From the NCBI RefSeq assembly GCF_009739905.1, contig NZ_CP034279.1:2232001-2296000 (forward strand): a DNA stretch of 64,000 nucleotides. The letters are read 5' to 3'. The translations under genes and the position numbers were made by a program. The notes beneath the pieces were generated by a model. It saw only the letters and a program-made list of their open reading frames with translations, was not told the origin of the DNA and did no database searches. Below, piece by piece: positions 1 to 40,945 of the stretch (the first letter of the stretch is position 1; every line of letters starts with the position of its first letter). The stretch is from Streptomyces ficellus (lineage in GTDB: Bacteria > Actinomycetota > Actinomycetes > Streptomycetales > Streptomycetaceae).

Positions 1-3000
1 TCGACGAGAACAGCACGAAGGCGCTCAGCCCGCGGTCCCGGGTCAGCTCGTCCAGGTGCGCGGCCACGTCGACCTTCGGCCGGAAGACGGTGGCGACGTC
101 GTCCGCGGTGAGCGACTCGACGGTGCCGTCCGCGACGACCCCGGCCGCGTGCACGACGGCGGTCGGCGGATGGGCGGCGAGCAGGGCCGCGACGCCCTCC
201 CGGTCGGTGAGGTCCACAGCGACAGCGGTGACGTCGGCCCCCAGCGCGGTCAGTTCAGTCACGAGTTCCGCGGCGCCGGGCGCGTCCGGGCCCCGGCGGC
301 CGGCCAGCACCAGGCGGCGGACCCCGTACGCGGTGACCAGGTGCCGGGCGACCAGGCGGCCCAGTGTCCCGGTGCCGCCGGTGATCAGCACGCTGTCGCC
401 CCAGTCCGGCGCCGCTGCGTCGGTCGTGCGGGCGCGGACCACGCGCCGTGCCAGCACGGCCTCCCCGCGCAGGGCGAGTTGCGGCTCGTCGAGGGTGACG
501 GCACCGGCGAGCAGGGGCGCGGACGGCGTTTCGGCGGGGTCGAGTTCCAGCAGCAGGAACCGGCCCGGGTGCTCCGTCTGGGCCGTCCGTACGAGGCCGT
601 AGGCGGCGGCGGCCGCCAGGGCGTCGGACCCGCCCTGCCCCTCCGGGAGACCGGGGGCGACCGTGTCACCGGGGGCGCCGGTTGTCGCGGCGTGACCGAG
701 GAACACCAGCTTCGATTCGCTGAACCGCGCGTCGGCGAGCCAGGCCTGGATCGTCCCGAGCGTGCCGACGGTCGCCTCCAGCGCACCGGTGGACGCCGGG
801 ACGGGGACGAAGACCACGGCGGGAGCCGGCCGGCCCTCGTCCATCGCCGTGCCCAGCCCGTAGAGGTCCGCGAAACGCGCCACCTCGGTCCCGAGCCCCT
901 CGGCCACGCCGAACAGGTCCTCGCCGACCACGGCCCAGCCACCGCCGTCCACCGGGACCGCTCCGCCGCTCGGGGCGACCTCCACCCACTCGGGGCGGTA
1001 CAGGTGCTCCGGTGTGCGCGTCGCGCTCCCGGCGGCTGGGGGCCGTACGAGGAGGGAGTCGACCGTCAGCACCGGCCGGCCGCCACCGTCGGTGGCGAGC
1101 ACGGCGAAGGTGTCCGTGCCGGTGGGGGTGACTCGTACCCGCAGGGCGGACGCCTTCCCGGCGTGCACGGTGACACCGTTCCAGGAGAACGGCAGCTTCG
1201 CCTCCGCCACCGGCCCGACCAGCGCGGCCGAGTGGACGGCCGCGTCGATCAGCGCGGGATGGAGGGTGAAGCCGGCCGTGTCGGGAGCGGTCTGCGGCTC
1301 GATCTCGGTGAACACCTCGTCGCCGCACCGCCAGGCGGCGCGGATGCCGCGGAACGCCGGCCCGTACTCGAGACCGGTCGCCGCCAGCTCCTCGTACAGT
1401 CCCGCCACGTCGACCGGCTCGCTCCCGGCGGGCGGCCACGACAGCAGCCGCCCGTCCTCGGCCGGCTCCCGCGGCTCGGCGCCCAGGGTGCCCGTGGCGT
1501 GCGTGGTCCACTCCTCCAGCGCGCCGCCGCGCCCGTGGACGGTGACGGCGCGCCGTCCGTCGTCCGCGGCCGCGCCCACCGACACCTGGAGCTGGACCTC
1601 CCCGTCCTCCGGCAGGAGGACCGGCGAGACGATCACCAGCTCCTCGAGCGTGCCACAACCCACCTCGTCCCCCGCCCGGACCAGGCACTCGACGAGCGCC
1701 GCGCCGGGCAACGGAACCACGCCGCCGACGCGGTGCTCGGCGAGCCAGGGGTGTTCACGGATCGAGAGCCGGGCGGTGAACACGTGCCCGCCCGAGCCGG
1801 CGAGCGCGACCGCCGCGCCGAGCAGGGCGTGTCCGGTGCTTTCCAGACCGGCCGAGTGCACGTCGCTCCGCTGGGAGCGGGACGCTTCGAGCCAGTAGCG
1901 TTGGCGTTGGAAGGGATAGGTGGGCAGGTCGACCCGGGTGGCGGCGGTCCCCTCGAACAACACCCCCCAGTCCACCGCGACACCCGACGTGAACAACCGC
2001 CCCAAGGCCGACAGGAACGCCTGCTCCTCCGACCGGTCCTTCCGCAACACCGGCACCGTCACCGCACCCGGCACCACACCCGCCGCCATCCCCGACAACA
2101 CACCATCAGGACCCAGCTCCAAAAACACCGACACCCCGGCATCGGCAAGCGCCCGCACCCCATCACCGAAACGCACCGCCTCCCGAACATGCCGCACCCA
2201 GTACTCCGGCGACGACACCAACCCAGGACCAGCCACACCACCCGTCACATTCGACACCAACGGCATACGCGGCTCGGAGAACGACAACCCCTCCACCACC
2301 GCACGGAACTCCGCCAACATCGGCTCCATCAACGGCGAATGAAACGCATGCGACACCCGCAACCGCGACGACTTCCGCCCCGGCAACGCAGCAACCACCC
2401 CCTCCACCGCACCCACATCACCCGCGACCACCACAGCCTCAGGACCATTGACCGCAGCGATCGACACCCCCTCACCCAACAGCGGCAACACCTCCGCCTC
2501 AGACACACCCAACGCCACCATCGCCCCACCCTCCGGCAGAGCCTCCATCAACCGCGCACGCGCCCCCACCAGCACACACGCATCCTCAAGCGACAACACC
2601 CCCGCCACATGCGCCGCAGCCACCTCACCAATCGAATGACCCGACACAAACTCCGGCACCACACCCAACGACTCCACCAACCGGAACAACGCCACCTCAA
2701 CCGCAAACAACGCCGGCTGAGCCCAACCCGTCCGACTCAACAACCCCGCATCCGACCCCCACACCACCTCACGCAAACCATCAAACCGCCCCACCACCTC
2801 ATCAAACACCCCCGCAAACACCGGGAAACGCCCATACAACTCCCGGCCCATACCCAAACGCTGAGCACCCTGACCCGAGAACAACACCCCCACCCGACCC
2901 ACACCATCAACCACACCACGCGCCGCCTCCACCACACCCTCAGCAGAAGCCAACACCACCGCCCGATGACCAAACACCGACCGACCCAACAACGACCAAC

Positions 3001-6000
3001 CCACATCCACCCGGCCCCGCGCACCCACCGGCGAACCCACCGAACCCAGGGCCACCAGCCGCGCATCCAGCGCCCCCGCCGACTTCCCCGACACCACCCA
3101 CGGCACCACACCCGGCACCGAACCGGGCACCGAACCGGGCACCGACTCCCCGCCACCAGACACCGACTCCGCAGCGCCAGGCACCGACTCCACCCCCGGC
3201 GCCGACTCCAAAATCACATGCGCGTTCGTCCCACTGATCCCGAACGACGACACCGCAGACCGACGCACACCCCCAACAGACCCCGGCCACGCGACGTTCT
3301 CCGTCACCAACTCCACCGCACCCGACGACCAGTCCACATGCGGCGACGGCGCATCCACATGCAACGTCCGAGGCACCACACCCGCACGCATCGCCATCAC
3401 CATCTTGATCACACCACCCACACCCGCAGCCGCCTGCGCATGCCCGATGTTCGACTTCAACGACCCCAACAACACCGGACGCCCACGATCACCACGCCCA
3501 TACGTCGCCAGCAACGCCTCCGCCTCAATCGGATCACCCAAAGACGTCCCCGTCCCATGAGCCTCCACCACATCCACATCCACCACCGACAACCCCGCAC
3601 CCGCCAACGCCTCACGGATCACCCGCTGCTGCGACGGACCATTCGGCGCCGTCAAACCATTCGACGCACCATCGGAGTTGACCGCGCTGCCGCGCACCAC
3701 GCCAAGGATCCGGCGCCCGTTGCGCACGGCGTCGGACAGCCGCTCCAGCAGGAGAACACCAGCACCCTCGGACCAGCCGACGCCGTTGGCGGCCGCCGCG
3801 AAGGCACGGCACCGGCCGTCCGGGGACAGGCCGCGCTGGCGGGAGAACTCGACGAAGGTCTCGGGTGACGCGAGGACGGTCACGCCGCCGGCCAGGGCGA
3901 GGTCGCACTCGCCCTGCCGCAGCGCCTGCGCCGCCAGGTGCAGGGCGACCAGCGACGACGAACACGCCGTGTCCACGGTCAGGGTCGGACCCTCGAAGCC
4001 GAAGGTGTAGGAGACGCGGCCGGAGGCGACACTGCCCGCGGTCCCCGTGCTCACGTATCCCTCCAGCTCCTCGGGCACCCCACCGAGCCGCGACACATAG
4101 TCGTGGTGCATCACGCCGGCGAACACGCCGGTGCGGCTGCCGCGCAGCGAGACCGGGTCGATGCCGGCCCGCTCGAACGCCTCCCACGACACCTCCAGCA
4201 GCAGCCGCTGCTGCGGGTCGGTGGCCAGTGCCTCCCTCGGGCTCATCCCGAAGAACTCCGCGTCGAAGTCACCGGGGCCGGTCAGGAAGCCGCCGTGGCG
4301 GGCGTAGGAGGTCCCGGGTGTGTCCGGGTCGTCGTCGAAGAGACGGCCGAGGTCCCAGCCGCGGTCGGTCGGGAACTCGCCGATCGCGTCGACACCTTCG
4401 TGGACCAGGTTCCACAGGTCGTCGGGGGACTCGATCCCGCCCGGGTAGCGGCAGCCCATGGCCACGATCGCGATCGCCTCGTCGTCGGCGGCCCGGGCGG
4501 GCCGTGCGGCGGGCGCGGTGGCCGGGAGGGCCGTGCCGGTCAATTCGTCGCGGATGTGTGCGGCGAGCGCGGCGACCGTCGGGTAGTCGAAGGCGACCGC
4601 CGCGGGAAGCCGCAGCCCGGTGGCGGCGGCGAGCCGGTGGCGCAGCTCGACCACGGTCAGCGAGTCGAAGCCGAGGTCCCCGAAGGACCGGTCGGCGTCC
4701 GCCGCGGTGAGCGCGGCCCTGCCGAGTACCGTCGCGACCTCCGTGGCGACGAGTTCCCGGACCGTCTCGGTCCGTGCCTGCTCGGGCAGGCCGAGGAGGC
4801 GCTGCGTCAGTGTCGTGTCGCCGCCGCTCGCGGTGCGGCGGGCGGGTGCGGGCGCCAGGCCGCGCAGTACGGCGGGCACCGGGCCGGTGGCCTGGGCGCG
4901 CAGTGCGGCGGTGTCGATGCGCGCCGCGACCACCGCGGCGCGGTCCCCGTGGAGCGCGGCGTCGAAGAGCGCGAGTCCCTCGTCCGTGGTCAGCGGGGTG
5001 ATCCCGGAACGCTTCAGCCGCTTGACGTCCGCCTCGGCGAGGGCGCCGGCCATGCCGCCGTGCTCAGCCCACAGCCCCCAGGCGATGGAGGTCGCGGGCA
5101 GTCCGATGGCGCGTCGGTGCTCGGCGAGGGCGTCGAGGAAGACGTTGGCCGCGGCGTAGTTGGCCTGGCCCGCCCCGCCGAGGGCGCCCGACACCGAGGA
5201 GAACACGACGAACGCGTCGAGGGGCGTGCCGTCGGTCAGTTCGTGCAGATTGACGGCGGCGTCCACCTTGGGGCGCATGACGGCGTCGATGCGGTCGGGG
5301 GTCAGGGCGGCGAGTACGCCGTCGTCGAGGACTCCCGCGCTGTGCACGACAGCGGTCAGCGGGTGTGCCGCGGGTATCCCGGCCAGGAGGGCGGCGACCG
5401 CGTCCCGGTCGCCGGTGTCGCACGCCGCCAGGGTGACGCGGGCGCCGAGGTCCTCCAGTTCGGAGACGAGACCGGCCGCGCCGGGGGCGTCGGAGCCCCG
5501 GCGGCCGGCCAGCAGCAGGTGCCGGGCGCCGTACGCGGTGACGAGGTGGCGGGTGATGACCCGGCCGAGCGCCCCGGTAGCCCCGGTGACGAGGACGGTT
5601 CCCTCGGGGTCGAGGTGGGTACGCCCGGTCTCCGCGCGCGGTGTGCGCGTCAGACGGGGTACGCGGACGGAGGTGTCGCGCAAGGCGAGCTGCGGCTCAC
5701 CGGTGGCGAGCGCGGCCGCCAGGAGCGGGCGTTCGGGTTCCGTGCCGGGTTCGCCGTCGACCAGGACGAAGCGGTCCGGGTGCTCGGTCTGCGCCGAGCG
5801 GACCAGGCCCCAGAGTGCGGCGTTGGGCGGGTCGCCCGCCTCTTCGCCGGAGGCGGCGGCCATGGCCCCGCGGGTGACGAACACCAGGCGGGACGCGGCG
5901 AACCGGTCGTCGGCCAGCCAGTGCCGCATCAGCGCCAGCGCACGGTGGGCGGCGGTACGGGCGGCCTCGGCGAGGGGACCGCCGAGGGGCGGGCACGGTA

Positions 6001-9000
6001 CCAGGACGGCGTCCGGTACGGGTCCGGCCGCGGCGAGCGCGTCGAGCCCGGCCGTGTCCGTGGCCTCGCCCCAGGTGGCGGGTGCGCCCCCGGTGCCGGC
6101 CGTCGGCGCGGACGTCCACTCGATCGCGTACAGGGGCGCGGTGGCCCCGGCACCGCCTGCCTGCGGGGTGGTGCCGGCGCGCAGGGTCAGCGACGTCACG
6201 GAGGCGACGGGCTGGCCGGCCGGGTCGGCGAGCCGGAGCGACACGGTGTCGCCGTCGCCGACCGGGGTGAGGGCGACCCGCAGGCGGGACGCGCCCGCGG
6301 CGGCGAGGCTGACCCCGGTCCAGGAGAACGGGAGGCGCAGTTCCGTCCCCGGCTCTCGGGTGTGGGTGGTGTGCAGGGCGGCGTCGAGGAGTGCCGGGTG
6401 GATGCCGTACTCGGACACGTCGGCCCCGTCGGGCAGGGCGACCTCGGCGAACACCTCGCCGTCCCGCCCGCGCCAGGCGGCCTTGAGGCCCTGGAACAGC
6501 GGACCGTAGCCGTACCCCTGGGCGTCGAGGCGTTCGTACAGTCCGGTCAGCTCGACGGGTTCGGCGCCCTGCGGGGGCCACTGGCCCGCCAGTGTGAACG
6601 TGTCGTCCGCGGGCTCCGGCCCGAGGACGCCCTCGGCGTGCCGGGTCCAGGTGTCGTCCTGGCCCTCCTCCTGCGCGAACACGCCGAACCGTCGGTGGCC
6701 GGAGTCGTCCGGCGCGTCGACCGTCAGCTGGATCCGTACGGCGCCGGTCTCGGCGAGCGTCAGCGGTGAGCTGAGGGTCAGCTCCGCCACGGTGGCGCAA
6801 CCGACCTCGTCGCCGGCCCGCACCGCCATCTCGACGAAGGCGGCTCCGGGCACGATCGCCCGGCCGCCGACAGTGTGCTCGGCCAGCCACGGGTGGGTCG
6901 CCCGGGACAGGCGGGAGGTGAACAGTACGCGTCCGTCGTCGGCCAGTTCGACGGCCGCCGCGAGCAGGGGGTGCCCGGCGGCGGACATGCCCGTCGCGCG
7001 CACATCGCCGGATCCGGTGCCGTGTGCTTCGAGCCAGTAGCGTTGGCGTTGGAAGGGATAGGTGGGCAGGTCGACCCGGGTGGCGGCGGTCCCCTCGAAC
7101 AACACCCCCCAGTCCACCGCGACACCCGACGTGAACAACCGCCCCAGCGCCGACAGGAACGCCTGCTCCTCCGACCGGTCCTTCCGCAACACCGGCACCG
7201 TCACCACACCCGGCACCACACCCGCCGCCATCCCCGACAACACACCATCAGGACCCAGCTCCAAAAACACCGACACCCCGGCATCGGCAAGCGCCCGCAC
7301 CCCATCACCGAAACGCACCGCCTCCCGAACATGCCGCACCCAGTACTCCGGCGACGACACCAACCCAGGACCAGCCACACCACCCGTCACATTCGACACC
7401 AACGGCATACGCGGCTCGGAGAACGACAACCCCTCCACCACCGCACGGAACTCCGCCAACATCGGCTCCATCAACGGCGAATGAAACGCATGCGACACCC
7501 GCAACCGCGACGACTTCCGCCCCGGCAACGCAGCAACCACCCCCTCCACCGCACCCACATCACCCGCGACCACCACAGCCTCAGGACCATTGACCGCAGC
7601 GATCGACACCCCCTCACCCAACAGCGGCAACACCTCCGCCTCAGACACACCCAACGCCACCATCGCCCCACCCTCCGGCAGAGCCTCCATCAACCGCGCA
7701 CGCGCCCCCACCAGCACACACGCATCCTCAAGCGACAACACCCCCGCCACATGCGCCGCAGCCACCTCACCAATCGAATGACCCGACACAAACTCCGGCA
7801 CCACACCCAACGACTCCACCAACCGGAACAACGCCACCTCAACCGCAAACAACGCCGGCTGAGCCCAACCCGTCCGACTCAACAACCCCGCATCCGACCC
7901 CCACACCACCTCACGCAAACCATCAAACCGCCCCACCACCTCATCAAACACCCCCGCAAACACCGGGAAACGCCCATACAACTCCCGGCCCATACCCAAA
8001 CGCTGAGCACCCTGACCCGAGAACAACACCCCCACCCGACCCACACCATCAACCACACCACGCGCCGCCTCCACCACACCCTCAGCAGAAGCCAACACCA
8101 CCGCCCGATGACCAAACACCGACCGACCCAACAACGACCAACCCACATCCACCCGGCCCCGCGCACCCACCGGCGAACCCACCGAACCCAGGGCCACCAG
8201 CCGCGCATCCAGCGCCCCCGCCGACTTCCCCGACACCACCCACGGCACCACACCCGGCACCGAACCGGGCACCGACTCCCCGCCACCAGACACCGACTCC
8301 GCAGCGCCAGGCACCGACTCCACCCCCGGCGCCGACTCCAAAATCACATGCGCGTTCGTCCCACTGATCCCGAACGACGACACCGCAGACCGACGCACAC
8401 CCCCAACAGACCCCGGCCACGCGACGTTCTCCGTCACCAACTCCACCGCACCCGACGACCAGTCCACATGCGGCGACGGCGCATCCACATGCAACGTCCG
8501 AGGCACCACACCCGCACGCATCGCCATCACCATCTTGATCACACCACCCACACCCGCAGCCGCCTGCGCATGCCCGATGTTCGACTTCAACGACCCCAAC
8601 AACACCGGACGCCCACGATCACCACGCCCATACGTCGCCAGCAACGCCTCCGCCTCAATCGGATCACCCAAAGACGTCCCCGTCCCATGAGCCTCCACCA
8701 CATCCACATCCACCACCGACAACCCCGCACCCGCCAACGCCTCACGGATCACCCGCTGCTGCGACGGACCATTCGGCGCCGTCAAACCATTCGACGCACC
8801 GTCCTGGTTCAGGGCCGATCCCCGGACGATCGCGAGCACGGGGTGGTCGTTGCGGACCGCGTCCGAGAGCCGCTCCAGGAGGAGCATGCCGGCGCCTTCG
8901 GACCAGCCGGTGCCGTTGGCACCGGCGGCGAAGGCACGGCACCGGCCGTCGGGTGACAGCGCCCGCTGGCGGGAGAAGTCGAGGAACACCTGCGGCGAGG

Positions 9001-12000
9001 CCATGACCGCCACGCCGCCGGCCAGGGCGAGGTCGCACTCGCCCTGCCGCAGCGCCTGTGCCGCCTGGTGCAGGGCGACCAGCGACGACGAGCACGCCGT
9101 GTCCACGGTGACGGCCGGGCCCTCCAGGCCCAGGGTGTAGGCGATGCGGCCGGAGGCGACACTGCCGGCCGCCGCGGTGCCGAGGTAGCCCTCCAGCTCC
9201 TCGGGAACGCCTTCGTAACGCTCCGCGTAGTCGTGGTGCATGAGACCGGCCCAGACGCCGGTGCGGCTGCCGCGCAGCGAGACCGGGTCGATGCCGGCCC
9301 GCTCGAACGCCTCCCACGACACCTCCAGCAGCAGCCGCTGCTGCGGGTCCATCACGAGGGCCTCGCCGGGGGCGATGCCGAAGAAGCCGGGGTCGAAGTC
9401 GCCGACGTCGTGCAGGAATCCGCCGTGGCGGGTGTAGCAGGTACCGGGTGCGTCCGGGTCCGTGTCGAACAGCGCGGCGAGGTCCCAGCCGCGGTTCGCG
9501 GGGAACTCGCCGATGCCCTCACGGCCTTCGACGACGAGGCTCCACAGGTCCTCCGGGGAGGTGATGCCGCCCGGGTAGCGGCAGCCCATGGCCACGATCG
9601 CGATCGGCTCGTCGTCGGCCGGCCGGGGGCGACGCGACGCGGGGGTGGCGGTGTCGGCGGGCGTACCCGTCAGTTCGGCGGCGAGGTGGCGGGCCAGCGC
9701 TTCGGGGGTGGGGTGGTCGAAGGCGACGGCGGCGGAAAGGGCGAGACCGGTGGCCTCGACGAGCCGGTTGCGCAGCCGGACCGCGGTCAGGGACGTCAGG
9801 CCGAGTTCCTTGAAGGCCCGGTCCGCGGCGACGGTCGTGGGCGCGTTGTCGCCGAGGACGGCGACGACCGCGGCCACGACGCGCTCGACGAGTGCCGCCC
9901 GACGCGCGGCGTCGGTGAGCGGCTCCAGCTCGTGGGCGAGCCGGGCGCGTACGGAGGCGTCGGGCGCCGTCCAGTCGTCCGCGGTGTCGGCCGCGCGCGG
10001 TGGCAGGAGGAGGTGGGCCGCGGGCCGGGCCGGGCCGGGGGCCAGGAGGCCTGTGTCCGGGCCGGTCAGGGCGGTGTCGAACAGGGCCAGTCCGTCCCGG
10101 ACGGGGATCGCCGTTTCGTCACCGTCGGCCCAGGCGGCCGTGGCGAGCAGGGCGCCGGTGCCGCCATGGGCGCGGTGGGCGCGGACGAGGGCGGCGGCGG
10201 AGGCGGTGGACGCGCCGGCGTCCTGACCGTCGGCGCCGAGGGCCGTGGTCAGTGGGGCGATCACCACGAGGGCGGGCAGGCCGCTGCCGCCGGCGGCCTC
10301 GTACAAGGCGTGCAGGGCGTGCGTGTCGTCCGGGTCCGGGCCGTCGGCCATGGGCGCGGCGTGCACGAGCGCGGTCACCGGGCCGTCCAAGTCGGCCACC
10401 GCGTCGGTGGTGGTGCGGACGTCGGCACCGAGGGCGGTCAGTTCGGCGGTGAGCGCGGCGAGGCCCTCGCTGTCCCGGTCGGTGAGCAGCAGGCGGCGTA
10501 CGCCGTGACCGGTGACGAGCTGCTCGGCGACGGCGGCGCCCACGGTCCCCCGTGCGCCGGTGACGACGGTGAGGCCGTCGGGGTCGAGGCGGGGGACGGC
10601 CGTGTGGGGTGCGGCCGCCGGGGCGAGCCGTGGGACGAGGGCGTCGCCCGCGCGGACGGCGATCCGAGGCTCGCCCGATTCGACGAGCCGGCGCAGGGCG
10701 TCGGGGGTGATGGCGTCCTCGTCGAGGTCGACGAGGACGAGCCGTCCGGGGTGCGCGGTCTGGAGGGACCTCAGCCGGGACCATGCTTCTCCGGCCACCG
10801 GGCCGGTCTGGAACGCCGCGTCCACGGCGCCCCGGGTCACGACGACGAGCCGTGACGGCGCCGGGGGGTTCCCCTCGTCCGTGCGGCCCGTCTCGTCGGC
10901 GAGGTCCGCGAGGCGGGCGGCGACACCGTCCGCCAGGTCGGCGGGGTCGCCGAGCGGCCGGACGACGGCCGGGTCGCCCTCGGCGGTCTCCGGGCTCCCG
11001 CCGTGCAGTTCCCAGGCGCGGGTGTCGGCGCTTCCGCTGTCCGGCAGCGGTACCCAGTCCAGGCGGAATAGGCCGTCGACGGTGCCCGTACCGGTGGCGA
11101 GGAGCCGGCGCGGCTGGTCGAGCAGGGCGTCCCGGACGATCTTGCCTGAGGGAGTCCGCAGGATGCGAGCGACGGTGTGGAGTTCCTCGGGGACCTTGTA
11201 GTACGACAGCCGGGTGCGGCACTCGGCGAACAGGCGCGGCGCGTCGACGCCGTCGGGGCCCGGTACGACGAGAGCCACCGGGACCTGCCCGAGGACGTCG
11301 TGGGGCACCGCGACGACGGCGGCGTCGACGACGCCGGGGACCTGGCGCAGCACCTCCTCGACCTCGCCGGGGTGGATGTTCTGGCCGCCGCGGATGATCA
11401 GCTCCTTGATCCGGCCGGTGACGGTGAGGAAGCCGTCCGCGTCGCGGCACGCCAGGTCGCCCGTGCGGTGCCAGCCGTCCGCGGGGGGCGTGGCGGTGCC
11501 GGTGGCACCGTCGTAGTAGCCGAGCATGACGTTCGGTCCCTGTACCCACACCTCGCCCTCCTGGCCGGTGGGGACGTCCTCGCCGGTCCGCGGGTCGACG
11601 AGCCGGAGTTCCAGTCCCGGCAGCGGGCGTCCGCAGGAGCCGTGCACGCGCGGGCCGTCGGGTGCGTTGGCGGTGATGGGGCCGCAGGTCTCGGTGGTGC
11701 CGTAGCTGTCGAGCAGGTCGACGCCGAACCGTTCCCGCACCAGGGCGCGCAGGGGCTCGGAGGCGACGGAGCCGGCGGTGAGGCAGACGCGCAGCGTGTC
11801 GGACACACCGGTGCCGCGTTCCCGGGCCGCCTCCACCAGCTGGTGGTACATGGCCGGGACGGCGGCGAGGAAGGTGAAGTCGCGGGTCGTGAGCAGTTCG
11901 AGTGCCTCGCCCGCCGAGAAGGCGGTCATGATGTGGGCGGTCGCGCCGACGGCGGTGACGCCGAGCACGCCGAGGTGGTGGCCGAGGCAGTGCGACAGGG

Positions 12001-12685
12001 GCAGCGGCCACAGGACGTGGTCGTCACCCGAGAGGCCGAGCGTCGGCGCGTAGCAGGCAGCGACGGTCCACAGGGAGTTGCGCGTGGTGGACAGCACGCC
12101 CTTGGGGCGGCCGGTCGTCCCGGACGTGTACAGCATGAAGGCCGGGTCGTCGAGGCCGAGGTCGTCCCGGGCGGGCCGCGTGGGTTCGGTGGTGGCCAGG
12201 GTGGTGAACGAGACCGTGCCGGAGGGTGAGCCCGCGGGCAGGGTGTCGCCTGTGACGACGACGATCAGGCCGGGGTGGCGGGGCAGCAGCGCGCGGATGT
12301 CGTCGAGGCGGGCGGGGTCGGTGACGAGGAGGCGTACGCCGGCGTCGGTGAGGATGTGGTCGAGTTCGTCGCCGCTGGTGCGGGGGTTGACTGGAATGCC
12401 GATGCCGGAGGCCCTGGCGATCGCGTGGTAGCTCTCCACCATGTCGACGCCGTTGTCGAGGTGGATGGCGGCGCGGTCGCCGCGGTCCAGGCCGAGCGTG
12501 CGGAAGTGTCCGGCCAGCCACGCGGTGCGGCGTTCCAGCTCGGCGTAGTCCACGCTGCGCCGGGCGTCGGAGAAGGCGGTCTTGCCGCCGAGCCGCTCGG
12601 CTTGGTCCCGCAGCAGTTCGTGCAACGGCCGGATCAGATCGCTGCGCAGCACTTCAGCACTTCCCTCGGTGTCGTTCTCGGTCAT
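1..12685 (-). CDS. Starter modular type I PKS: AMP-ligase/KR-like/ACP loading module plus two KS-AT-DH-KR modules (C-terminal part outside window)
   Basis: First enzyme of the assembly line; it activates a carboxylic acid and starts chain growth. ATG at 12685 lies 31 bp after the chorismatase-DAHP synthase stop; at least 4,228 codons are visible. Approximate residues: AMP-ligase 1-520 with the [11 protein letters not shown] core near 190; KR-like region with TGARGTVG near 710; loading ACP near 963 reading GLTSL instead of GxDSL. Module 1: KS from about 1027 (DTACSSS near 1192), AT (GHSIGE, HAFH: malonyl type), DH (H-x3-G-x4-P near 1935), KR (TGATGALG near 2368, ANYAAAN), ACP near 2673. Module 2: KS, AT (GHSIGE, HAFH), DH with intact motif, KR (TGGTGTLG), and the window ends at the KR FSS serine motif. 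Both KRs carry a B-type LDD/VAD-like signature. The ligase-first layout resembles rapamycin/FK506 starter PKSs, but those carry an ER-like domain where this has a KR-like one (family knowledge). The substrate is inferred from the adjacent chorismatase. Confidence 0.95.
1884..3670. repeat. Copy B of a 1.78-kb near-identical intragenic repeat (KS C-terminal part + AT, module 2)
   Basis: This 1,787-bp stretch matches 7026-8800 almost base for base. By eye I find three substitutions (two adjacent to the AT C-terminal end near 2006-2012, one near 2061) and a 12-bp indel where this copy has an extra unit near 3115-3140, in the KS-AT linker. It covers the last third of the KS, the linker, the whole AT and the post-AT linker. 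The coding strand here uses many TTG, GGT, GTT and GCT codons, unlike the flanking C/G-ending codons. Both edges are sharp. Confidence 0.95.
7026..8800. repeat. Copy A of the 1.78-kb near-identical intragenic repeat (KS C-terminal part + AT, module 1)
   Basis: The 1,775-bp partner of 1884-3670, in the same orientation about 5.14 kb away within the same gene. Homologous recombination between the copies would delete or duplicate exactly one module in frame. Identity stops abruptly just after the shared [12 protein letters not shown]-coding region on the KS side and at the post-[11 protein letters not shown]-coding region on the other. Confidence 0.95.
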
Positions 12686-12716: not shown

Positions 12717-14915
12717 TCAGGCCGGTCCGAAGACGCGGTCGACGAGGTGGGCGGCCTGCTCGCTGTTGAGCCGGGGGTCGCACAGCGTCGTGTAGTGGCG
12801 TTCGACGTCGTCCGGGCCGTGGACCGGCCCGCCGATGCACTCGGTGACGTCCTCGGCGGCGGTCTCCAGGTGCAGCCCACCCGGGTGTTGGCCGTGGGCG
12901 CGGAGGATGTCGCGGAAGCGGAGGGCCTCGTCGACGAGGTGGTCGAGGTGGCGCACCTTGATGCCGGAGGGCAGCTTGACGGTGTTGCCGTGCATGGGGT
13001 CGCTGAGCCAGACCACGGGGTGGCCGGCGTCGCGGACGGCGCGGACCACCGGGGGCAGGAGGGTGCCGATGTCGGCGCTGCCCATGCGGACGATGAAGGT
13101 GAGCCGTCCGGGTTCCCGGTGCGGGTCGAGCGCCCGGCACAGGGCGAGGACACCGTCGGGTGTGGAGCGGGGTCCGATCTTGCAGGCGACGGGGTTGATC
13201 ACCGAGCCGAGCAGGGCGACGTGGGCGTGGCCGGGGTCGCCGGTGCGTTCACCGACCCACGGGTAGTGGGTGGAGCCGAGGAATCGGTCGCCGGTGGCCT
13301 CGTCGACGCGTACCAGTGCGCCGGTGTAGTCCATGACGAGCGCGTCGTGGCTGGACCAGGGGCCTGGGTGGACACCGTGCAGGGTCGCCCCGCGGTGGCC
13401 GCGCAGGGTCCGCTGGACCTCGTCGCTGAAGTGGTAGGCCCACAGCATGCGGACGGGGTCGTGCTTCCTGGCCTCGGGGGACCGGCCCTCGGCGTTGACC
13501 ATGTGGCCGCGGAAGGCGGGCAGTTCGACGCCGTCGACCACTTCGAAGGGGGTGGAGCGGGGCTTGGCGTACTGGCCGCCGATGCGGCCGATCCTGACGA
13601 CGCCGCGCCCGGTGTGGTGGCCGAGCCGTCCGGCCAGTGCGTCCAGGGCTTCGATCTTCGCCCGGGTGTGGTCGGGAGTGCTCTCGTAGAAGCTTTCCGC
13701 GCAGTCCCCGATCTGAAGCACGTGGGCCTCGCCGGCGGCGACCTCGGCGAGCCGGTCGCGCAGTTCGCGGACCTCGCCGGGAAGGACGAGGGGCGGGGCG
13801 GCCGTGAGGGTGGCCTTCACCCGCTCGTAGGCGGGGTGGTCGCCCCACTGCGGCTGCTGTCCGGCGGGCAGGTGCTCCCACTCGGGCGTGTGCCGGAGGT
13901 TCGAGACGTGGTCGCGGACAACGATGCCCTCCAGCTCGACGAGCAGGTCCGCGCGGCAGATGTCGGCGTTGAGGAACACCATGTCGACGGCCGGCGAGAG
14001 GGCCTCTCGGCAGATCCTCTCGACGCGGGCGATGTCCGACTGGTGGCGGACGTAGACCTTCACGGCGCGCAGGTCGTCGAGGGTGCAGCCCCGTCCGATG
14101 CCGTGCACGGAAAGGTTCCTGCCGCCGATGACGTGGGCGATGTTGTCCAGGGCCAGCCGGCACTGCGCCTCCACGTCGCCGGGGTGCATGGTGCGGTGGC
14201 CGAGGATGCCGGCGGTGCCGGACACGTAGAGCTGTTCGCCGCCGCCGTCCTGGGCGAGATAGGTGGCGCGGGCGAAGTTGGGGGCCTTGGGGCCGTACCG
14301 GCTCGGATAGTGGTAAGGCGGCACCTGGCGCGGGTTGTCGATGTTGACCTGGGTGCCGGCGCGGCAGGCGAGGAAGTAGAGGACGATGCCTCCGCCGTGC
14401 GCGCCGATGACGGTCGCGGCGGGCATGTCGTCGGTCATTCCGTACCGTTCGAGGGCGCGGGCCCGGCCGACGCAGAACTCCCGGTAGACCTCCAGGCCCG
14501 CCGCGTTCTCCTCGTTGACGCGGCTGATGTAGTGCCACACGCGGTAGAGCCGGCCGTAGCCGAGGGTGCGCGTCAGTTCGACCGCTTCGGTGTAGGCGGT
14601 TTCGGTGGCGTCGACGTAGTCGTCGCTCTCCGGTATGCGCGCGGCGCAGAACAGGAACTCGCCGTCCACGGCGTAGGACAGCGTGCCCGACCGGCCCGCC
14701 CGGACCGGCCGGGGCGAGGTCCACACTTCGGCGAACCCCTCCTCCACGGATCTGGCGATCTGGATGCCGACCACCGGGTGCCCGGCGTCCGTGCCGGGGT
14801 CCGACGGTTCGTGCGTGAAGTCGACCCTGCCCAGGACGTGCCGGCCCGGCGCCACCCGGTCGGCGGTCTTCAGACTCTGGAAGGTGACCGTCGGTGCGTA
14901 CGTACTGCTCGTCAT
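12717..14915 (-). CDS. Chorismatase (FkbO/Hyg5 family) fused to class II DAHP synthase
   Basis: A 732-residue two-domain enzyme. Residues 1 to about 338 match chorismatases, which cleave chorismate to pyruvate plus a (dihydro)hydroxybenzoate used as a PKS starter; visible family signatures are NIDNPRQV (191-198), YGPKAP (207-212), VSGTAG (231-236) and C320-x6-E327 before the domain end. Residues about 345-732 are a short class II DAHP synthase, the first shikimate step: the QIGDCAESF cysteine (C405), GRIGGQYAKPRS (443-454), KIGPRS (579-584), DPMHGN (639-644), LETAAED (683-689) and DPRLN (713-717) supply the expected metal and PEP/E4P ligands. The long N-terminal regulatory part of primary-metabolism class II enzymes is absent, as in PhzC-like secondary-metabolism forms, suggesting weak feedback control (inference). 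GGGGGA precedes the ATG. It lies immediately upstream of the AMP-ligase PKS, so it probably feeds that enzyme. Whether the acid is 3-hydroxybenzoate or a dihydro compound is not settled. Confidence 0.93.
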   Translation of the reverse strand: MTSSTYAPTVTFQSLKTADRVAPGRHVLGRVDFTHEPSDPGTDAGHPVVGIQIARSVEEGFAEVWTSPRPVRAGRSGTLSYAVDGEFLFCAARIPESDDYVDATETAYTEAVELTRTLGYGRLYRVWHYISRVNEENAAGLEVYREFCVGRARALERYGMTDDMPAATVIGAHGGGIVLYFLACRAGTQVNIDNPRQVPPYHYPSRYGPKAPNFARATYLAQDGGGEQLYVSGTAGILGHRTMHPGDVEAQCRLALDNIAHVIGGRNLSVHGIGRGCTLDDLRAVKVYVRHQSDIARVERICREALSPAVDMVFLNADICRADLLVELEGIVVRDHVSNLRHTPEWEHLPAGQQPQWGDHPAYERVKATLTAAPPLVLPGEVRELRDRLAEVAAGEAHVLQIGDCAESFYESTPDHTRAKIEALDALAGRLGHHTGRGVVRIGRIGGQYAKPRSTPFEVVDGVELPAFRGHMVNAEGRSPEARKHDPVRMLWAYHFSDEVQRTLRGHRGATLHGVHPGPWSSHDALVMDYTGALVRVDEATGDRFLGSTHYPWVGERTGDPGHAHVALLGSVINPVACKIGPRSTPDGVLALCRALDPHREPGRLTFIVRMGSADIGTLLPPVVRAVRDAGHPVVWLSDPMHGNTVKLPSGIKVRHLDHLVDEALRFRDILRAHGQHPGGLHLETAAEDVTECIGGPVHGPDDVERHYTTLCDPRLNSEQAAHLVDRVFGPA

Positions 14916-14986: not shown

Positions 14987-17900
14987 TCACGAGCCGTTGC
15001 GACCGAGCGCCAGCCGCACCAGTTCCTCGGCGTCCATGTTCTTGATGGCGTGCTCCGCTGCCTCGGCGGCCTCGGAGGTGCGGCGGTCCGCGGGGGCGGC
15101 GCCCCCGGGCTTGTCAGCTTCGGCGGTGTCCGTGGCGGGCGCGGGCATAATGCGCCCGGCCAGCCAGTCCGCCACGGCCTGCGGTGTCGGATAGTCGAAG
15201 ATCAGAGTCGAGGGCAGGCGCAGTCCGCTGACCGCGTCGAGCCGGTTGCGCAGCTCGATGCCGGTGAGCGAGTCCAGCCCGAGGTCGAGGAACCCGCGGT
15301 CCACCACCACGGTCGCCGGGCCGGCGTGCCCGAGGACGGCGGCGACGTGTTCCCGTACGACGGCGAGGACCTCGCGGGCCCGGTCCTGCTCCGGCAGGTC
15401 GGCCAGCCGGGCGCGGAGCGCGGCGGACTGGTCGGACCGCTCGGCGGTCCTGGCCCTGGGGAGCCGGACGAGGCCCCGCAGCAGCGGCGGCACCTGCTCG
15501 GCGCGGGAGAACAGCCGGCGCAGCGCCCTGACGTCGAGGCGGGCGGGCACGAGGGCGGCTTCGCCGGTGCCGGTGGCCAGGTCGAAAAGGGCGAGGCCCT
15601 CGTCGGTCGTCAGCGCGGTGAGCCCGACGCGGGCGGCACGGGCGCGGTCGGCCTCGGCTAGCCGGTCGACCATGCCCCCGTCGGCCTCCCAGGCTCCCCA
15701 GGCCAGGGCCTGGGCGGGCAGTCCGTGTTGCCGGCGGTGGGCGGCGAGGGCGTCGAGGAAGGCGTTCGCGGCGGCGTAGTTGGCCTGTCCGGCACCGCCC
15801 AGGGTGCCGGACAGCGACGAGAACAACGAGAAGAACCGCAGGTTCGTGCCGCGGGTCAGTTCGTGCAGGTTCCAGGCGGCGTCGACCTTGGGGCGCAGGA
15901 CGTCCTGCAGCTCGCGCTCGGTGAGCGTCTCGAGCATGCCGTCGGCGAGGACACCGGCGGCGTGGACGACTCCGGTGAGCGGCCGGTCCTGCGGTACGGC
16001 GTCGAGGACGGCGGCCAGCGCGGCGCGGTCGGACACGTCGCACGCGGCGATCTCGACCTCGGCTCCCAGGTCCCGCAGCTTTGCGGCCAGTTCGGCGGCA
16101 CCCTCGGTGGCGGGGCCGCGGCGGCTGAGGAGCAGGAGCCTGCGGGCGCCGTGCCGGACGACCAGGTGCTCGGCGAGGGCGGCGCCCAGGGCCCCGAGGG
16201 CTCCGGTGACCAGGACGGTGCCGGCCGGGTCGGGTGCCGGCGCCGCCGGGGCTCCGGTGGGCGCGGGGCGGGCCAGGCGGGGCACGAGGGGCTCGCCGTC
16301 GCGGAGCGCCGCCTGGGGTTCTTCGAGAGCGAGGAGGCCGGGCAGGGCGCGGGCCGACGCCTCGGTGCCGTCGGTGTCGACGAGGACGAACCGGTCGGGG
16401 TGCTCGGTCTGGGCGGTGCGCAGCAGGCCCCACACCGCGGCGCCGGTGAGGTCGGCGGGGGCGTCGCCCACGGCGCCCCGGGTGACCACCACGAGCCGTG
16501 CGGCGGCGAGCCGTTCGTCGGCCAGCCAGTCCTTGAGGGTGGTGAGCGTGGCGAGTGCGGCGTGCCGGACGGCGGCGGGCAGGTCGGCCGGGGTGCCGTC
16601 CGGGGCGGTGTGGGTGAGCACGACCAGGGCGGGCGGGGTGGCGCCCGCGTCGAGCGACCGGCGCAGGGCGCTGAGGTCGGGGTGCCAGGAGCCGTCGCCC
16701 CACTGGGCGCGCAGCGCTCCGGAGAGGCGTACGTCGTCGGCGCCGAGTGCCGCCCAGGGGCCCGCCGGGCGGGCGGAGCCCTCACGGGGCGGCGGCGGGT
16801 CGGCGGGGGCCCACTGCACGTGGAAGAGGGCGTCGTCCGTCGTGTCGCAAGCGACCAGTTGGTCGGGCGCCACCTCGCGCAGCCGGATCCTGTCGACGGT
16901 CACCACGGGGAGGCCCGCGTGGTCGACGGCGGTCAGGGACAGGGTCTCCTCGTCGGCGGCGACGATCCGGACCCGCAGGGCGACGGCGCCCCGGGCGTGA
17001 ACTGCCACGTCCTGCCAGGCGTACGGCAGTCGTGTCTCGCCGTCGGCCTCGTCGTAACCGACCAGGGCGAGGGACTGCAGGGCGGCGTCCCAGAGGGCCG
17101 GGTGGAGGACGAAGCCGCCGGTCTCCTCGTGCCGGGCCTCGGGCAGGGACACCTCCGCGAACACCTCGGCGTCCCGGTGCCACAGGGCACGGACGCCCTG
17201 AAACGCGGGCCCGTAGTCGTAGCCGCGTGCGGCGAGCCGTTCGTACACGCCGTCGATGTCGACGGCGGTGGCGTCTGCCGGCGGCCATGCGCCGGTGAGC
17301 CCGGCCGTGTCGGGGACGGTGTCCGGTTCGGGGGTGACCGTCCCGGAGGCGTGGAGCTCGAAGGGGTCGTCGGGGAGGGCGTCCTCGCGGCGGGAGTGGA
17401 CGGTGAGCGCGCGGGCGCCCTCCCCGTCCGGGGCCGACAGGGCTACGCGAAGGTGGACGGCCGTGTCGGCGGGCACGAGCAGCGGGGCGTGCAGGGTGAT
17501 GTCCCGGACGGCGGGGCAGTCCGCGGCCTCGCCGGCGCGTGCCGCCAGTTCGACGAGTCCGGTGCCGGGCAGCAGGGCGGTGCCCCACATGGCGTGGTCG
17601 GCGAGCCAGGGCTGGGTCTCGGCGGAGATCCTGCCGGTGAGCAGCATGCCCTCGGATGCCGGGAGTTCGGCGGCGGCCCGGAGGAAGGGGTGGCGGACGG
17701 CGGTGAGGCCGAGTCCCGCCGCGTCGACGGTGTCCTGGTGCGGGGCGGTCCAGTAGCGGCTGCCCTGGAAGGCGTACGTGGGCAGTTCCAGCCCGGGGTC
17801 GGGGTGGCCGTCGAAGACGGCGTCCCAGTCGACGGTGACGCCGTCGGTGTGCAAGCGCGCCAGGGCGGCGAGCACGGTGCCGGTCTCGCCGCGGCCGCGC

Positions 17901-20449
17901 CGCAGGAGGGCGGCGAACACCGCGTCACCGGTGTCGTCCACCCCGGCGAGGGTGTCCTGGGCGGCCGGGGTGAGCGCGGTGTCCGGGCCGATCTCCAGGA
18001 ACCGGGCGGCGCCTTGTGCGCGCAGGGTGCGGACGCCGTCGGCGAAGCGCACGGTGCCGCGGACGTGGGCGGCCCAGTACTCGGGTGAGCGGGCCTGTTC
18101 GGCGGTGAGGAGTTCGCCGGTGACGTTGGACACGACGGGCAGGCGGGGCGCGTGGGAGCTGACGGAGGACAGGACGGCGGAGAACGCCTCCAGGGCGGGC
18201 TCCATCAGCGCGGAGTGGAAGGCGTGCGAGGTGCGCAGGGGCCTGGTCCGTACGCCTTCGGCGCGGCAGGCGGCGGCGACCTTGTCGACGAGCGCGTCCT
18301 CGCCCGACACGACCACGGCGGAGGGCCCGTTGACGGCGGCGATGCTCACGTCGGCGCCCAGGGCGGCCATGAGGTCGCGCACCCACTGTTCGGGGGCGGC
18401 GACGGCGACCATGGCGCCGCCGGCGGGCAGGGCGTCCATCAGGCGTCCGCGTTCGGCGACCACCTTCGCCGCGTCGGGCAGGGACCAGACGCCGGCGATG
18501 TGGGCCGCGGTCAGTTCACCGATCGAGTGCCCCGCCAGGAGGGTCGGGCGCAGACCCCAGCTCGCGGTGAGCCGGTGCAGGGCCACTTCGAGGGCGAACG
18601 TCGCCGCCTGGGTGTAGGCGGTGCGGTCGAGGAGACGCGCGTCGGCGGTGTCGGGTCGGGCGAACAGCACGGTCTTCAGAGGCCGTTCGAAGTGGGGGGC
18701 GAACGCGGCGCACACCTCGTCGAGGGCTTCGGCGAAGACGGGGTACGCCGTGTACAGCTCGTGGCCCATGCGGGGCCGCTGGGCGCCCTGGCCGGTGAAC
18801 AGCACCGCGAGCCCGCCCTGTCGGCGTGCCCGGACGCCGGCGACGTGGGTGTCGGCCTCGCCGGCCGCGAGAGCGTCGAGTCCGCGCAGCAGGTCGGCCC
18901 GGTCGGTGCCGAGGACGGCCGCGCGCACCGGCATGGCCGTCCGGCGGGTCGCGAGGGCCATGGCGACGTCGGCGGGTTGGGCGTCCTCGTGGTCGTCGGC
19001 CCAGGCGCGCAGCCGGGCGGCCTGGGCGCGCAGGGCCTCCTCGGTGCGGGCGGACAGGATCCAGGGGGCGGTGTCGATGTGGGGCCGCGTGGGTGTGGGC
19101 CCGGCACTCTCGGGGGCCTGTTCGAGGATGACGTGGGCATTGGTGCCGCTCAGTCCGAAGGAGGACACGGCCGCTCGGCGGGGCCGGCCGGTCTCGGGCC
19201 AGGGCACGGGGCTCAGGGTGACCAGCCGGACGTCGCCGACGGTCCAGTCGACCTGGGGTGAGGGCTCGTCGGCGTGCAGGGTGGGCGGGACGGTCCCGTG
19301 GCGCATGGCCTGCACCATTTTGATGATGCCGGCCACGCCCGCGGCGGCCTGGGTGTGGCCGATGTTGGACTTGACGGACCCGAGCAGCAGTGGGCGGCCG
19401 GCGGGCCTGCCGGTGCCGTAGGTCGCCAGGAGGGCCTGTGCCTCGATGGGGTCGCCGAGGCGGGTGCCGGTGCCGTGGCCCTCGACGACGTCGACGTCGG
19501 CCGGGCCGAGGCCGGCCCGGTCGAGGGCGCCTTGGATGACCCGCTGCTGGGAGGGGCCGTTGGGGGCGGTGATGCCGTTGGATCTGCCGTCCTGGTTGAC
19601 GGCCGAGCCGCGGATCACCGCGAGGACGGGGTGGCCGAGGCGGCGGGCGTCGGAGAGCCGCTCGACGAGCAGCACTCCGACCCCTTCCGCGAATCCGGTG
19701 CCGTCGGCTCCCGCGCCGTAGGACTTGCACCGGCCGTCCGTGGCCAGTCCGCGCTGGCGGCTGAAGTAGACGAAGGTGTCGGGGGTCGTCATGACGGTGG
19801 CCCCGCCGACCAGGGCGAGCGAGCAGTCGTCGTCGGCGAGTGCCTGGCAGGCGACGTGGAGGGCGACCAGCGACGAGGAGCATGCCGTGTCGACCACGAC
19901 GGCCGGGCCCTCGAGGCCGAAGGCGTAGGCCACGCGTCCGGCGGCCATGCTGGCGGTGTCGGTGGACGGGCCGGAGGACATGATGCCGCTGAATACGCCG
20001 ACGCGGCCGCCCCGCAGGGTGTCCGGCCGGATGCCGGCGCGTTCGACGGCTTCGGCGGAGCACTCCAGCAGCAGTCGGTGCTGGGGGTCCATGGCCAGCG
20101 CCTCGCGGGGGCTGATGTCGAAGTACCCGGCGTCGAAGGAGGCGGCGTCCTGGAGGAAACCGCCCTCCCGGACGTAGCTCTTGCCGACGGCGTCGGGGTC
20201 GGGATCGTAGATGCCCGAGACGTCCCAGCCCCGGTCACCGGGGAATTCGGCCACCGCGTCGCGCCCCTCGGTCACCAGCCGCCACAGGTCGTCCGGCGAA
20301 GCCACTCCACCCGGATACCGGCATGCCATTCCTACGATTGCCACGGGCTCCGGGAGCCGGTTTTCCGCCGTGTGCAGACGTTGCCGCAGGTCCTGTATCT
20401 CCGCCGTCGCGCGCCTCAGATAGTCGACGTACTTCTGCTCGTCAGCCAT
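14987..20449 (-). CDS. Type I PKS, single module KS-AT-DH-KR-ACP
   Basis: An 1,820-residue one-module extension PKS. The N-terminal class 1 docking helix ([15 protein letters not shown]) spans residues 7-21. KS about 35-460 with DTACSSS near 187; AT with GHSIGE near 641 and HAFH near 745, pointing to malonyl-CoA; DH with [11 protein letters not shown] near 953 and a DAALQ second motif; KR with TGALGALG near 1412, FSSLSG and ANYAAAN, B-type VLAD signature; ACP serine in GLDSL near 1725; C-terminal docking helix [12 protein letters not shown]. All catalytic motifs look intact, so the module should add two carbons and leave a double bond. ATG at 20449 follows a strong GGGGGAG ribosome binding site. 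Its place in the assembly order is unknown, because modules are missing to the left of the window. Confidence 0.95.
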
Positions 20450-21143: not shown

Positions 21144-28966
<7,823 letters not shown>

Positions 28967-28970
<4 letters not shown>

Positions 28971-31900
28971 GCGTTCCCGAGCTGTTCGTCCAGCAGGTTG
29001 AAGAGTTCCTCCGGTGTGGCGGACTCCAGGGGGGCGGCGTGGTAACCGGGGGCTCCGGACCACGTGCGCGTCAGCTCCTTGAGCCGGGCCACGAGGTGTT
29101 CGCGCGCGGTGTCGTCCAGCGTGGTGGCCGACAGGGTCGCGCTCAGGTTGTCGAGGGCCTCGTGGACGGCACCCTCGGCGGCCGGGGCGCCGGGCGTGCC
29201 CGGCCCGTTCGCCGCCGCCTTCCCGTCCCGGAAGTGGGTGTCCAGGAATGTGGCGAGCGCCGCCGGGGTCGGGTAATCGAAGACCAGGGTGGCGGGGAGC
29301 CGGATGCCGGTCACCGTGCCGAGCTGGTTGCGCAGCTCGACCGCGGTGAGCGAGTCGAAGCCCAGTTCCTTGAACGGGCGGTCCTCGTCGACGGTTTCAC
29401 CGCCGGTCCCGTCGTGGCCGAGGACGGCGGCCACCTTGGCGCGGACCAGCGCCACGAGTTCGTCGAGCCGTTCGGCGGCCGGCAGGTCCGCGAGCCGGTC
29501 ACGCAGGGGGCCGTCGGTGTCCGCGCCGGTGCCGGATCCCTCGCCGCCCCGGCCGGGTGCGGCGGGCCGCACCCGCAGGAGCGAGCGCAGCACCGGCGGC
29601 ACACCGCTGGCCTGGGCCGCGGCGTGCAGCGCGGGGAGGTCGAGGCGGGCGGTGACGAGTTCGGGCGCGTCGTGGACGTGCGCGGCGTCGAGCGCAGCGT
29701 CGAGGAGCGCCAGGGCCTCCTCGGCCGGCATGGCGACGATGCCGGGGGCCGCGAGCCTCCGCATGCCGGCTTCGTCCAGGTCCCCGGTGATGTCGCTGCT
29801 CTCGTCCCACAGGCCCCACGCCAGCGACGTGGCGGGCAGGCCGAGCCGGTGGCGGTGCCGGGCGAGGGCGTCCAGGAAGGCGTTGGCCGCCGCGTAGTTG
29901 GCCTGGCCCGCGCGACCGAGCACGCCCGACAGCGAGGAGAACGTCACGAACGCCGTGAGGTCGTGTCCGAGGGTGAGTTCGTGCAGGTTGAGCGCCGCGT
30001 CCACCTTGGGGCGCAGGACGCGGTCGAGGCGCTCGGGGGTCAGTGAGGTGACGATGCCGTCGTCGACCACACCGGCCGTGTGGACGACCGAGGTGAGCCG
30101 CCGCTCAGGGGGCAGGGAGGCGAGCAGCGCGGCGAGCGCGTCGCGGTCCGCCACGTCGCAGCGGGCCACGGTGACGTGCGCGCCCAGGGCGGTGAGTTCC
30201 GCGACGAGGGCGTCGGCGCCGGGCGTGGCGGTGCCCCTGCGGCCCACGAGCAGCAGGTCGCGTACGCCCTTCTCCGCCACCAGGTGCCGGGCGACGAGGC
30301 CGCCGAGCACGCCGAGGCCGCCGGTGATCAGGGTGGTGCCCCGGCCGTCCGCCTCGGCGGGGGCGGGGGCATGTGCGGCCGGGACGCGTACGAGCCGGGG
30401 CACGAGGACGGTGCCGGCCCGGACGGCCGTCTCCGGTTCACCGGTCGCCACGGCCGCCGTCAGCGTCTCGGCGGCCACCGGGTCCGGTCCGGCCGCGTCC
30501 ACCAGGACGATCCGCCCCGGGTGTTCGGCCTGGGCGGAGCGCACCAGGCCCCACACCGCCGCGCCCGCGAGGTCCGTGGGGGTCGTGTCGCCGGCCGGCG
30601 CCACGGCGCCGTGGGTGACGACCACCAGCCGCGAGTCGGCCAGGAGGTCGTCCCGGAGCCACTCCTGGACGAGCCCGAGCACCCGGTCGGTGGTGTACCG
30701 GACCGCCGCGGCCGTGTCCGGCGACGTACCGTCGCCGCCCTGCCCGTCGTCGTCGGCGGCGGTGACGGGAGCCACCGGGGCGAACACGAGTTCCGGCGGC
30801 GGGGTCCCGGCCCCGGTCGCGGCGAGGAGCGCGGGGAGGTCGGCGTAGGGGTGGCCGGACGCGCGGGCCGGGTCACCGGCGCCGCCGATCACCGCGCACC
30901 GCTCGGGGCGGGTCACCGGGCCGGCCGGTGTGGCGGCCGTCCAGTCGAGCCGGAAGAGGGCGTCCCGGTGGGCGTCCGCGGTGGCCCGCAGCTGGTCGGC
31001 GGTGACGGGCCGTACGGTGAGCCCCTCGACGGACACGACCGGCGTGCCGGTGGTGTCGGCGGCCAGCAGCGTGAGCTCGTCGCCCTCATGGCGCAGGGCC
31101 ACCCGCAGGGCGGTGGGGCCGGTGCGGTGCACGGTGACGCCGCGCCACGCGAAGGGCAGCCGCAGGGGCGCGGGGCCGGGCTCCCGGTCGAGCCGGTCGG
31201 CGAGCACGGCGTGGAGGGCGGCGTCGAGCAGGGCGGGGTGCGGGCCGAAGGCCGCCGCGTCGGTGAGCGCGGCCGTCTCCGGGGCGACCTCGGCGAACAG
31301 CTCGTCGCCGCGCCTCCACAGGGCGCGCAGTCCGCGGAAGGCGGGGCCGTACGACAGCCCGAGGATGGCCAGCCGTCCGTACAGGGTGTCGACGTCCACC
31401 GGGATTGCCCCGGGCGGCGGCCAGACGCCGCGCAGCTGGTCCCAGGCGCCGCCTTCGGGGCGGGCGGTCTCCTCGGGCCGCAGGGTCCCCTGGGCGTGCC
31501 GGGTCCACGGCGAACCGGCGGGGCCGTCCTCGGGGCGGGAGTACAGGGTGAGCGCCCGGCGGCCGGAGTCGTCCGGGGAGCCGACGGCCACCTGGAGGGT
31601 GAGGGCGCCCTCGTCGGGCAGGACGACCGGTGCGTGCAGCATGAGCTCCTCGACGCTGCCGGGGCCCGTGCGGGCGGCCAGGTGGGCGGCGAGTTCGACG
31701 GTGGCGGTGCCGGGGAGCAGGAGTGTGCCGGCGACGGCGTGGTCGGCGAGCCAGGGGTGCATCCCGGCCGCGAGCCGCCCGGTGTGGACGGCCGCGCCGT
31801 CCACACCCGCGTCGTCCGCCAGGTCGACGGTGGCGCCCAGCAGCGGGTGGTCCACGGTGTGCAGCCCGGCGGCCCGGACGTCCCCGGCGGACGGGGCGGG

Positions 31901-34666: not shown

Positions 34667-34993
34667 CAAAACCTCGTCCCCCGTGGTGACCGCATGGCAA
34701 GGAATCCTTGTCCATAAGCCTCCACGCCGGGGAAGTGCCGGAACAGGCAGAACCGGCGGCGAAACCACAGAAATCCGGAACAGTGAATTCCATTTGTGTT
34801 CCGTCAGCCCGTCGCCACCACTTCGGGACCACCGATCCGGATGCCACTTGAGTTATCTTGACAGCCAGGGCTAGCCTGCCCGTCGGGGGAAATTCGCGTA
34901 TCGCTCTGTGCGCACCTCCGCCCTGCTTCCCGTCCTTTCCCGCCGACGCGGAACACACACCCGGAAATTGCACTGACCCGACGGAGGTCGACC
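34667..34993. promoter_or_regulatory. Divergent promoter region between the PKS operon and the Rieske oxygenase gene
   Basis: 327 bp without a gene, noticeably richer in A/T than its surroundings. For the rightward gene, TTGAGT (34848-34853) and TAGCCT (34872-34877) are 18 bp apart and form a plausible vegetative promoter with a leader of about 110 nt. Next to the PKS start lies a small palindrome CAAGGA-A-TCCTTG (34698-34710). CCGGAACAG occurs twice in direct orientation (34738-34746 and 34775-34783). No clear -10/-35 pair was found for the PKS direction. Confidence 0.4.
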
Positions 34994-40930: not shown

Positions 40931-40945
40931 TAGCGTTGCCGACCA
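40931..40945 (+). promoter_or_regulatory. Candidate leaderless promoter of nucS
   Basis: A TAGCGT hexamer (40931-40936) ends 8 bp before the nucS ATG, and there is no Shine-Dalgarno sequence in front of the ATG. This is the geometry of leaderless genes, in which transcription starts at the start codon. No clear -35 was seen. Confidence 0.3.

Follow-up and report, generated by a model that had tools for sequence, protein, structure and literature searches.

A chorismatase and a type IIB DAHP synthase fused in one reading frame within a polyketide gene cluster of Streptomyces ficellus

The fusion gene and its cluster

A window of 64,000 nucleotides from the genome of S. ficellus (one contig, 7,078,240 bp, 100% complete) was analysed. 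Its minus strand carries an open reading frame with an ATG start that encodes a chorismatase, a linker and a class II DAHP synthase in a single protein of 732 amino acids. The parts of this gene and the polyketide synthase (PKS) genes around it are listed below.

2-12685, minus strand: PKS with an AMP-ligase (CoA-ligase-type) loading domain (residues 26-515), running off the window; starts 31 nt past the stop of the fusion gene
12717-14915, minus strand: fusion gene, chorismatase, linker and class II (type IIB) DAHP synthase, from the reading frame and profile matches
12717-13877, minus strand: type IIB DAHP synthase half, residues 347-732, without alpha2a/alpha2b, from the PF01474 match and an alignment to PA1901
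13878-13919, minus strand: linker, residues 333-346, disordered in the AlphaFold2 model
13920-14915, minus strand: chorismatase half, residues 1-332 (TIGR04444 at residues 24-332), from the profile match and an alignment to Hyg5
14987-20449, minus strand: PKS module KS-AT-DH-KR-ACP directly upstream of the fusion gene, from domain matches
21144-29063, minus strand: hybrid PKS-NRPS comprising KS-AT, carrier and adenylation domains and two stretches of condensation domain, from domain matches
28967-34768, minus strand: PKS module KS-AT-DH-KR-ACP that opens the row of PKS genes in the window, from domain matches
36352-37107, minus strand: stand-alone thioesterase belonging to the cluster

The N-terminal half matches the FkbO/Hyg5 family TIGR04444 with 434 bits (cut-off 325; residues 24-332, model positions 2-311), and residues ~347-724 match the class II DAHP synthase family PF01474 with 418 bits (cut-off 27), which leaves a linker of about 14 residues. 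An earlier note on this DNA had proposed that both enzymes share one polypeptide, and the full-length matches within a single reading frame bear this out. With TIGR01358 the DAHP synthase half scores 400, below the cut-off of 615, which fits the short form of the enzyme. The AlphaFold2 model has a mean pLDDT of 88.7 and two well-folded domains; values below 50 are confined to residues 1-4 and 338-344, and at a pTM of 0.58 the relative orientation of the two domains is without confidence. The best PDB matches of the model in Foldseek were 6bmc for the DAHP synthase half (TM 0.94 by target) and 5a3k for the chorismatase half (TM 0.91 for Hyg5). No solved chain covering both halves was among the 50 matches listed.

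The fusion gene lies directly before the AMP-ligase PKS, as the earlier note had stated. The order PKS, PKS-NRPS, PKS, fusion, AMP-ligase PKS is common to two further fusion loci, in Streptomyces nymphaeiformis and Actinophytocola algeriensis. In the unfused sister loci of A. xinjiangensis and Tamaricihabitans a homologous AMP-ligase PKS adjoins in the opposite direction. No other shikimate genes were found among the window genes scanned. A Rieske ring-hydroxylating oxygenase (34994-36187, plus strand) and a luciferase-like monooxygenase (39000-40178, plus strand) beside the PKS genes are possible tailoring enzymes, and a class V aminotransferase or cysteine desulfurase-like gene (TIGR01976; 37163-38422, minus strand) adjoins the thioesterase. 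A NucS endonuclease (40921-41607, plus strand) and ATP synthase genes (55975-61478, minus strand) have housekeeping functions and mark the cluster edge.

The adenylation domain of the NRPS is interrupted by about 350 amino acids in the two other fusion genomes (L157:9852-10964, L158:9477-10672), and the interruption in L157 matches methyltransferase families. The adenylation domain of the window PKS-NRPS is free of this insert, so the compound made here probably carries no methyl group at that residue.

Integrity and origin of the fusion

The closest unfused relatives have two genes that overlap by 4 nt in different frames, an arrangement in which one indel could mimic a fusion. A sequencing error that joined two separate genes is nevertheless a negligible prospect. 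Around the junction there is no stop codon in any frame within 135 nt, and in the other two frames the nearest downstream stops lie at gene nt 1096 and 1664, both within the DAHP synthase half. Moreover, from residue 314 to residue 365 the DAHP synthase frame offers no start codon. Thus a single indel would not yield two sensible genes. GC content by codon position is even along the gene, with a GC3 of 0.94 in the chorismatase half, 0.97 at the junction and 0.93 in the DAHP synthase half. The same in-frame join is present in S. nymphaeiformis (81% identity over 728 residues) and A. algeriensis (68%), whose genomes were sequenced independently and whose linkers have diverged, so that an artefact would need independent errors in all three genomes. 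With no sign of a frameshift and with three genomes in agreement, the artefact was rejected; the fusion is genuine.

Other two-domain proteins were sought among the GTDB chorismatase loci; out of 390 relatives, the 80 most similar to the window were surveyed. A fused chorismatase-DAHP synthase is encoded at two of these 80 loci, those of S. nymphaeiformis and A. algeriensis with their shared cluster order. An unfused class II DAHP synthase gene follows the chorismatase gene within less than 300 nt at 19 of the 80 loci and is found elsewhere within 6 kb at 7 more. Since the survey covered the best 80 of the 390 relatives, further fusions among more distant chorismatases are possible. In overlapping samples of 394 genomes of the order, 395 of the class and 397 of the phylum, no TIGR04444 protein, with flanks as read, was fused to a DAHP synthase beyond that of the window. 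A plasmid search returned chorismatase and DAHP synthase as separate genes only, and viral contigs just one remote relative. The available text of the open-licence papers found describes no chorismatase-DAHP synthase fusion. The earlier view of known chorismatases as stand-alone enzymes holds for the characterised ones, but their pairing with DAHP synthase as neighbouring genes is common. The novelty lies in the covalent join between the chorismatase and the type IIB enzyme; the single halves and their pairing as genes belong to known kinds or derive from them.

In the nearest unfused relatives the 4-nt overlap of chorismatase stop and DAHP synthase start reads ATGA in A. xinjiangensis (L075) and GTGA in Tamaricihabitans (L076); a GTGA overlap occurs in Streptomyces loci L064-L066 as well. 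In the chorismatase tree (81 rows) as in the DAHP synthase tree (32 rows), the fusion proteins form one clade, ((window, S. nymphaeiformis), A. algeriensis), with support of 97/90 and 96/90, respectively. Its sister in both trees is the pair of A. xinjiangensis and Tamaricihabitans. These congruent trees argue for a single origin of the fusion. Most simply, a translationally coupled pair overlapping by 4 nt was fused in one event, and the product then reached two families by transfer or by descent. Other DAHP synthase genes next to chorismatase genes belong to separate lineages; thus, the two enzymes appear to have been brought together on more than one occasion.

Two observations concern more distant loci. 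In isolates from fungus-growing ants, the Pseudonocardia plasmids pFRP1-1 and pBCI1-1 (L052, L165) encode 3-dehydroquinate dehydratase, chorismatase and DAHP synthase as separate neighbours, a small plasmid-borne shikimate supply set. The chorismatase L070:9569-10471 has an unrelated tail after NVDVCR and has lost the catalytic Glu, by decay, frameshift or assembly error.

Signatures and selection in the two halves

In an alignment to Hyg5, Gly233, Cys320 and Glu327 of the chorismatase half correspond to Gly240, Cys327 and Glu334. The corresponding set is carried by Nat-hyg5, a demonstrated producer of 3-hydroxybenzoate (3-HBA) (PMC7170507). This signature and the full-length TIGR04444 match characterize the half as a CH-II (Hyg5-type) chorismatase. 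Throughout the window clade Val169 is found where nearly all other chorismatases have Gly. Judged by offset, the site probably lines up with Gly-164 of Nat-hyg5, the third residue typical of CH-II (probably Gly173 of Hyg5), and Gly is also present there in FkbO. The three signature residues point to 3-hydroxybenzoate as the product, with Val169 as a reservation. CH-I-like loci (L115, L139, L142, L150) have Ala/Ala at the positions of Hyg5 residues 240 and 327. The FkbO-type product 3,4-CHD is disfavoured, as the Ala/Ala signature is absent from the window protein, even though the CH-I-like clade is sister to the wider chorismatase clade of the window. Profile searches gave no chorismate mutase match in the N-terminal half, which sets the protein apart from AroQ-type fusions. 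The fused chorismatase is the sole chorismatase of the S. ficellus genome.

The DAHP synthase half aligns over its full length with the short PA1901 (6BMC), beginning at PA1901 residue 12 and without a large gap. Its metal ligands are C405, H642, E684 and D713, the counterparts of Cys87, His369, Glu411 and Asp441 of Mtu AroG. The PEP site residues R444, E556, R557, K579 and R610 are all kept (Arg106, Glu217, Arg218, Lys240 and Arg271 in PA1901; PMC6435475). These alignments and that to Hyg5 agree with the earlier proposal of intact catalytic residues in both halves. At the alpha2a/alpha2b loop the DAHP synthase half is about 40-45 residues shorter than Mtu AroG and than the separate long-form housekeeping class II enzyme of S. 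ficellus. Type IIB enzymes are defined by an abbreviated N-terminal extension that is kept and an alpha2a/alpha2b insertion that is absent (PMC6435475). With its class II fold, PEP and metal residues, N-terminal extension and lack of alpha2a/alpha2b, the fused half is of this type. The enzyme is indeed short, as had been noted earlier, but its abbreviated extension is retained, and it is the alpha2a/alpha2b insert that is missing.

PA1901 is a dimer and insensitive to aromatic amino acids (PMC6435475), and by analogy the fused half probably escapes feedback by these amino acids. Insensitivity of the fused enzyme should not be taken for granted, however: in the caboxamycin strain all class II enzymes were subject to repression by aromatic amino acids (PMC5481532).

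Selection on the parts was estimated by a simple counting method on high-GC genes, which makes the dN/dS values rough. For the chorismatase half they are 0.21 against S. nymphaeiformis and 0.27 against A. algeriensis, for the DAHP synthase half 0.52 and 0.33, and for the linker, with 14 codons only, about 0.8-1.2, near neutral. Judged by these values, purifying selection maintains both halves, the chorismatase being the more constrained one, and the linker drifts.

The higher value of 0.52 could also mean that the DAHP synthase half is catalytically weak or decaying and retained only to support the chorismatase structurally. Two family-conserved positions are substituted in it (Mtu E248 to D524 and R286 to G559), and in the unfused sister proteins L075 and L076 the Glu of the GERT motif is altered (GLRT, GART). 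Type I DAHP synthases, however, tolerate other residues in this motif. In addition, the metal and PEP residues of the window protein are all intact, dN/dS is below 1 in both comparisons, and the barrel is well folded in the model and close to 6bmc. We therefore regard decay as improbable.

Proposed role and comparison with known systems

The likely explanation is a bifunctional precursor-supply enzyme for a PKS/NRPS primed with 3-hydroxybenzoate, in which we infer that both halves are active. The type IIB half would open the shikimate pathway, probably free of aromatic amino acid feedback, and chorismate would then be made by the housekeeping shikimate enzymes. The CH-II half would convert chorismate to 3-hydroxybenzoate and pyruvate, and the AMP-ligase domain encoded downstream would load 3-hydroxybenzoate onto the PKS. 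The benefit of the fusion may be that entry and exit enzymes are always present in equal amounts (1:1), at the same time and in the same place. Six enzymatic steps lie between the two reactions, so that coupling would act via amount or regulation and not by hand-over; direct substrate channelling between the halves was rejected for this reason.

In S. tsukubaensis, a near doubling of DAHP synthase activity raised FK506 by about 50% (PMC3680238), and DAHP synthase can thus limit a chorismatase-primed PKS. Counted against the supply role are the caboxamycin cluster, where production did not stop after removal of a class II DAHP synthase (PMC5481532), and the lack of further shikimate genes among the window genes scanned.

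The chorismatase domain might instead mainly gate the DAHP synthase upon binding of chorismate or 3-HBA, in the manner of the chorismate mutase domain of the Bacillus, Listeria and Geobacillus enzymes. There, a DAHP synthase is fused to a chorismate-binding enzyme with a regulatory role (PMC5526877), and type II DAHP synthases form regulatory complexes with chorismate mutase (PMC6435475). Nevertheless, the chorismatase half has kept its catalytic residues and is under stronger constraint than the DAHP synthase half. It is also the only chorismatase of the genome, next to a PKS that needs an aromatic acid, and the freely drifting linker and the model without a fixed domain orientation argue against gating as well. 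We consider a mainly regulatory domain unlikely. An allosteric role could add to catalysis instead of replacing it. It is unlikely, too, that the domain produces the starter and at the same time regulates the attached DAHP synthase, by chorismate or 3-HBA binding or in a shared oligomer, which would be a self-adjusting shikimate valve and a new regulated entry point.

As a supply enzyme for the starter acid, the fusion would tie entry and exit of the shikimate pathway in one protein. It resembles a natural form of the metabolic engineering in which more DAHP synthase is provided to supply a polyketide primed by a chorismatase (PMC3680238). Here nature allows one to ask whether coupled dosage is by itself enough to increase precursor supply, and the protein is a ready-made part for 3-hydroxybenzoate production; the unfused overlapping sisters render the evolutionary step directly testable.

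Among known systems, the CH-II 3-hydroxybenzoate synthases Hyg5 and Nat-hyg5 (PDB 5AG3, 5A3K) share with the fusion the whole chorismatase domain, its Gly/Cys/Glu signature and the PKS starter context. They are stand-alone in the characterised cases, whereas the window clade is about 48% identical to them and has Val169 in place of Gly. The type IIB enzyme PhzC/PA1901 (6BMC) is, like the fused half, a short class II DAHP synthase of a secondary-metabolism cluster, without alpha2a/alpha2b and with all PEP residues. It differs as a stand-alone dimer with 47% identity, while the fused enzyme has an extra N-terminal chorismatase of 332 amino acids. Adjacent gene pairs, as in Lentzea, Paractinoplanes, S. 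eurocidicus, A. xinjiangensis and others, provide both enzymes in the same order and in some cases with 4-nt overlaps, but as two polypeptides. The AroQ chorismate mutase-DAHP synthase fusions of Bacillus, Listeria and Geobacillus likewise combine an N-terminal chorismate-using domain with a C-terminal DAHP synthase. In those proteins, however, the partner domain is a primary-metabolism chorismate mutase that often has a regulatory role, and the DAHP synthase is of another type; the window protein joins a chorismatase to a type IIB DAHP synthase of secondary metabolism.
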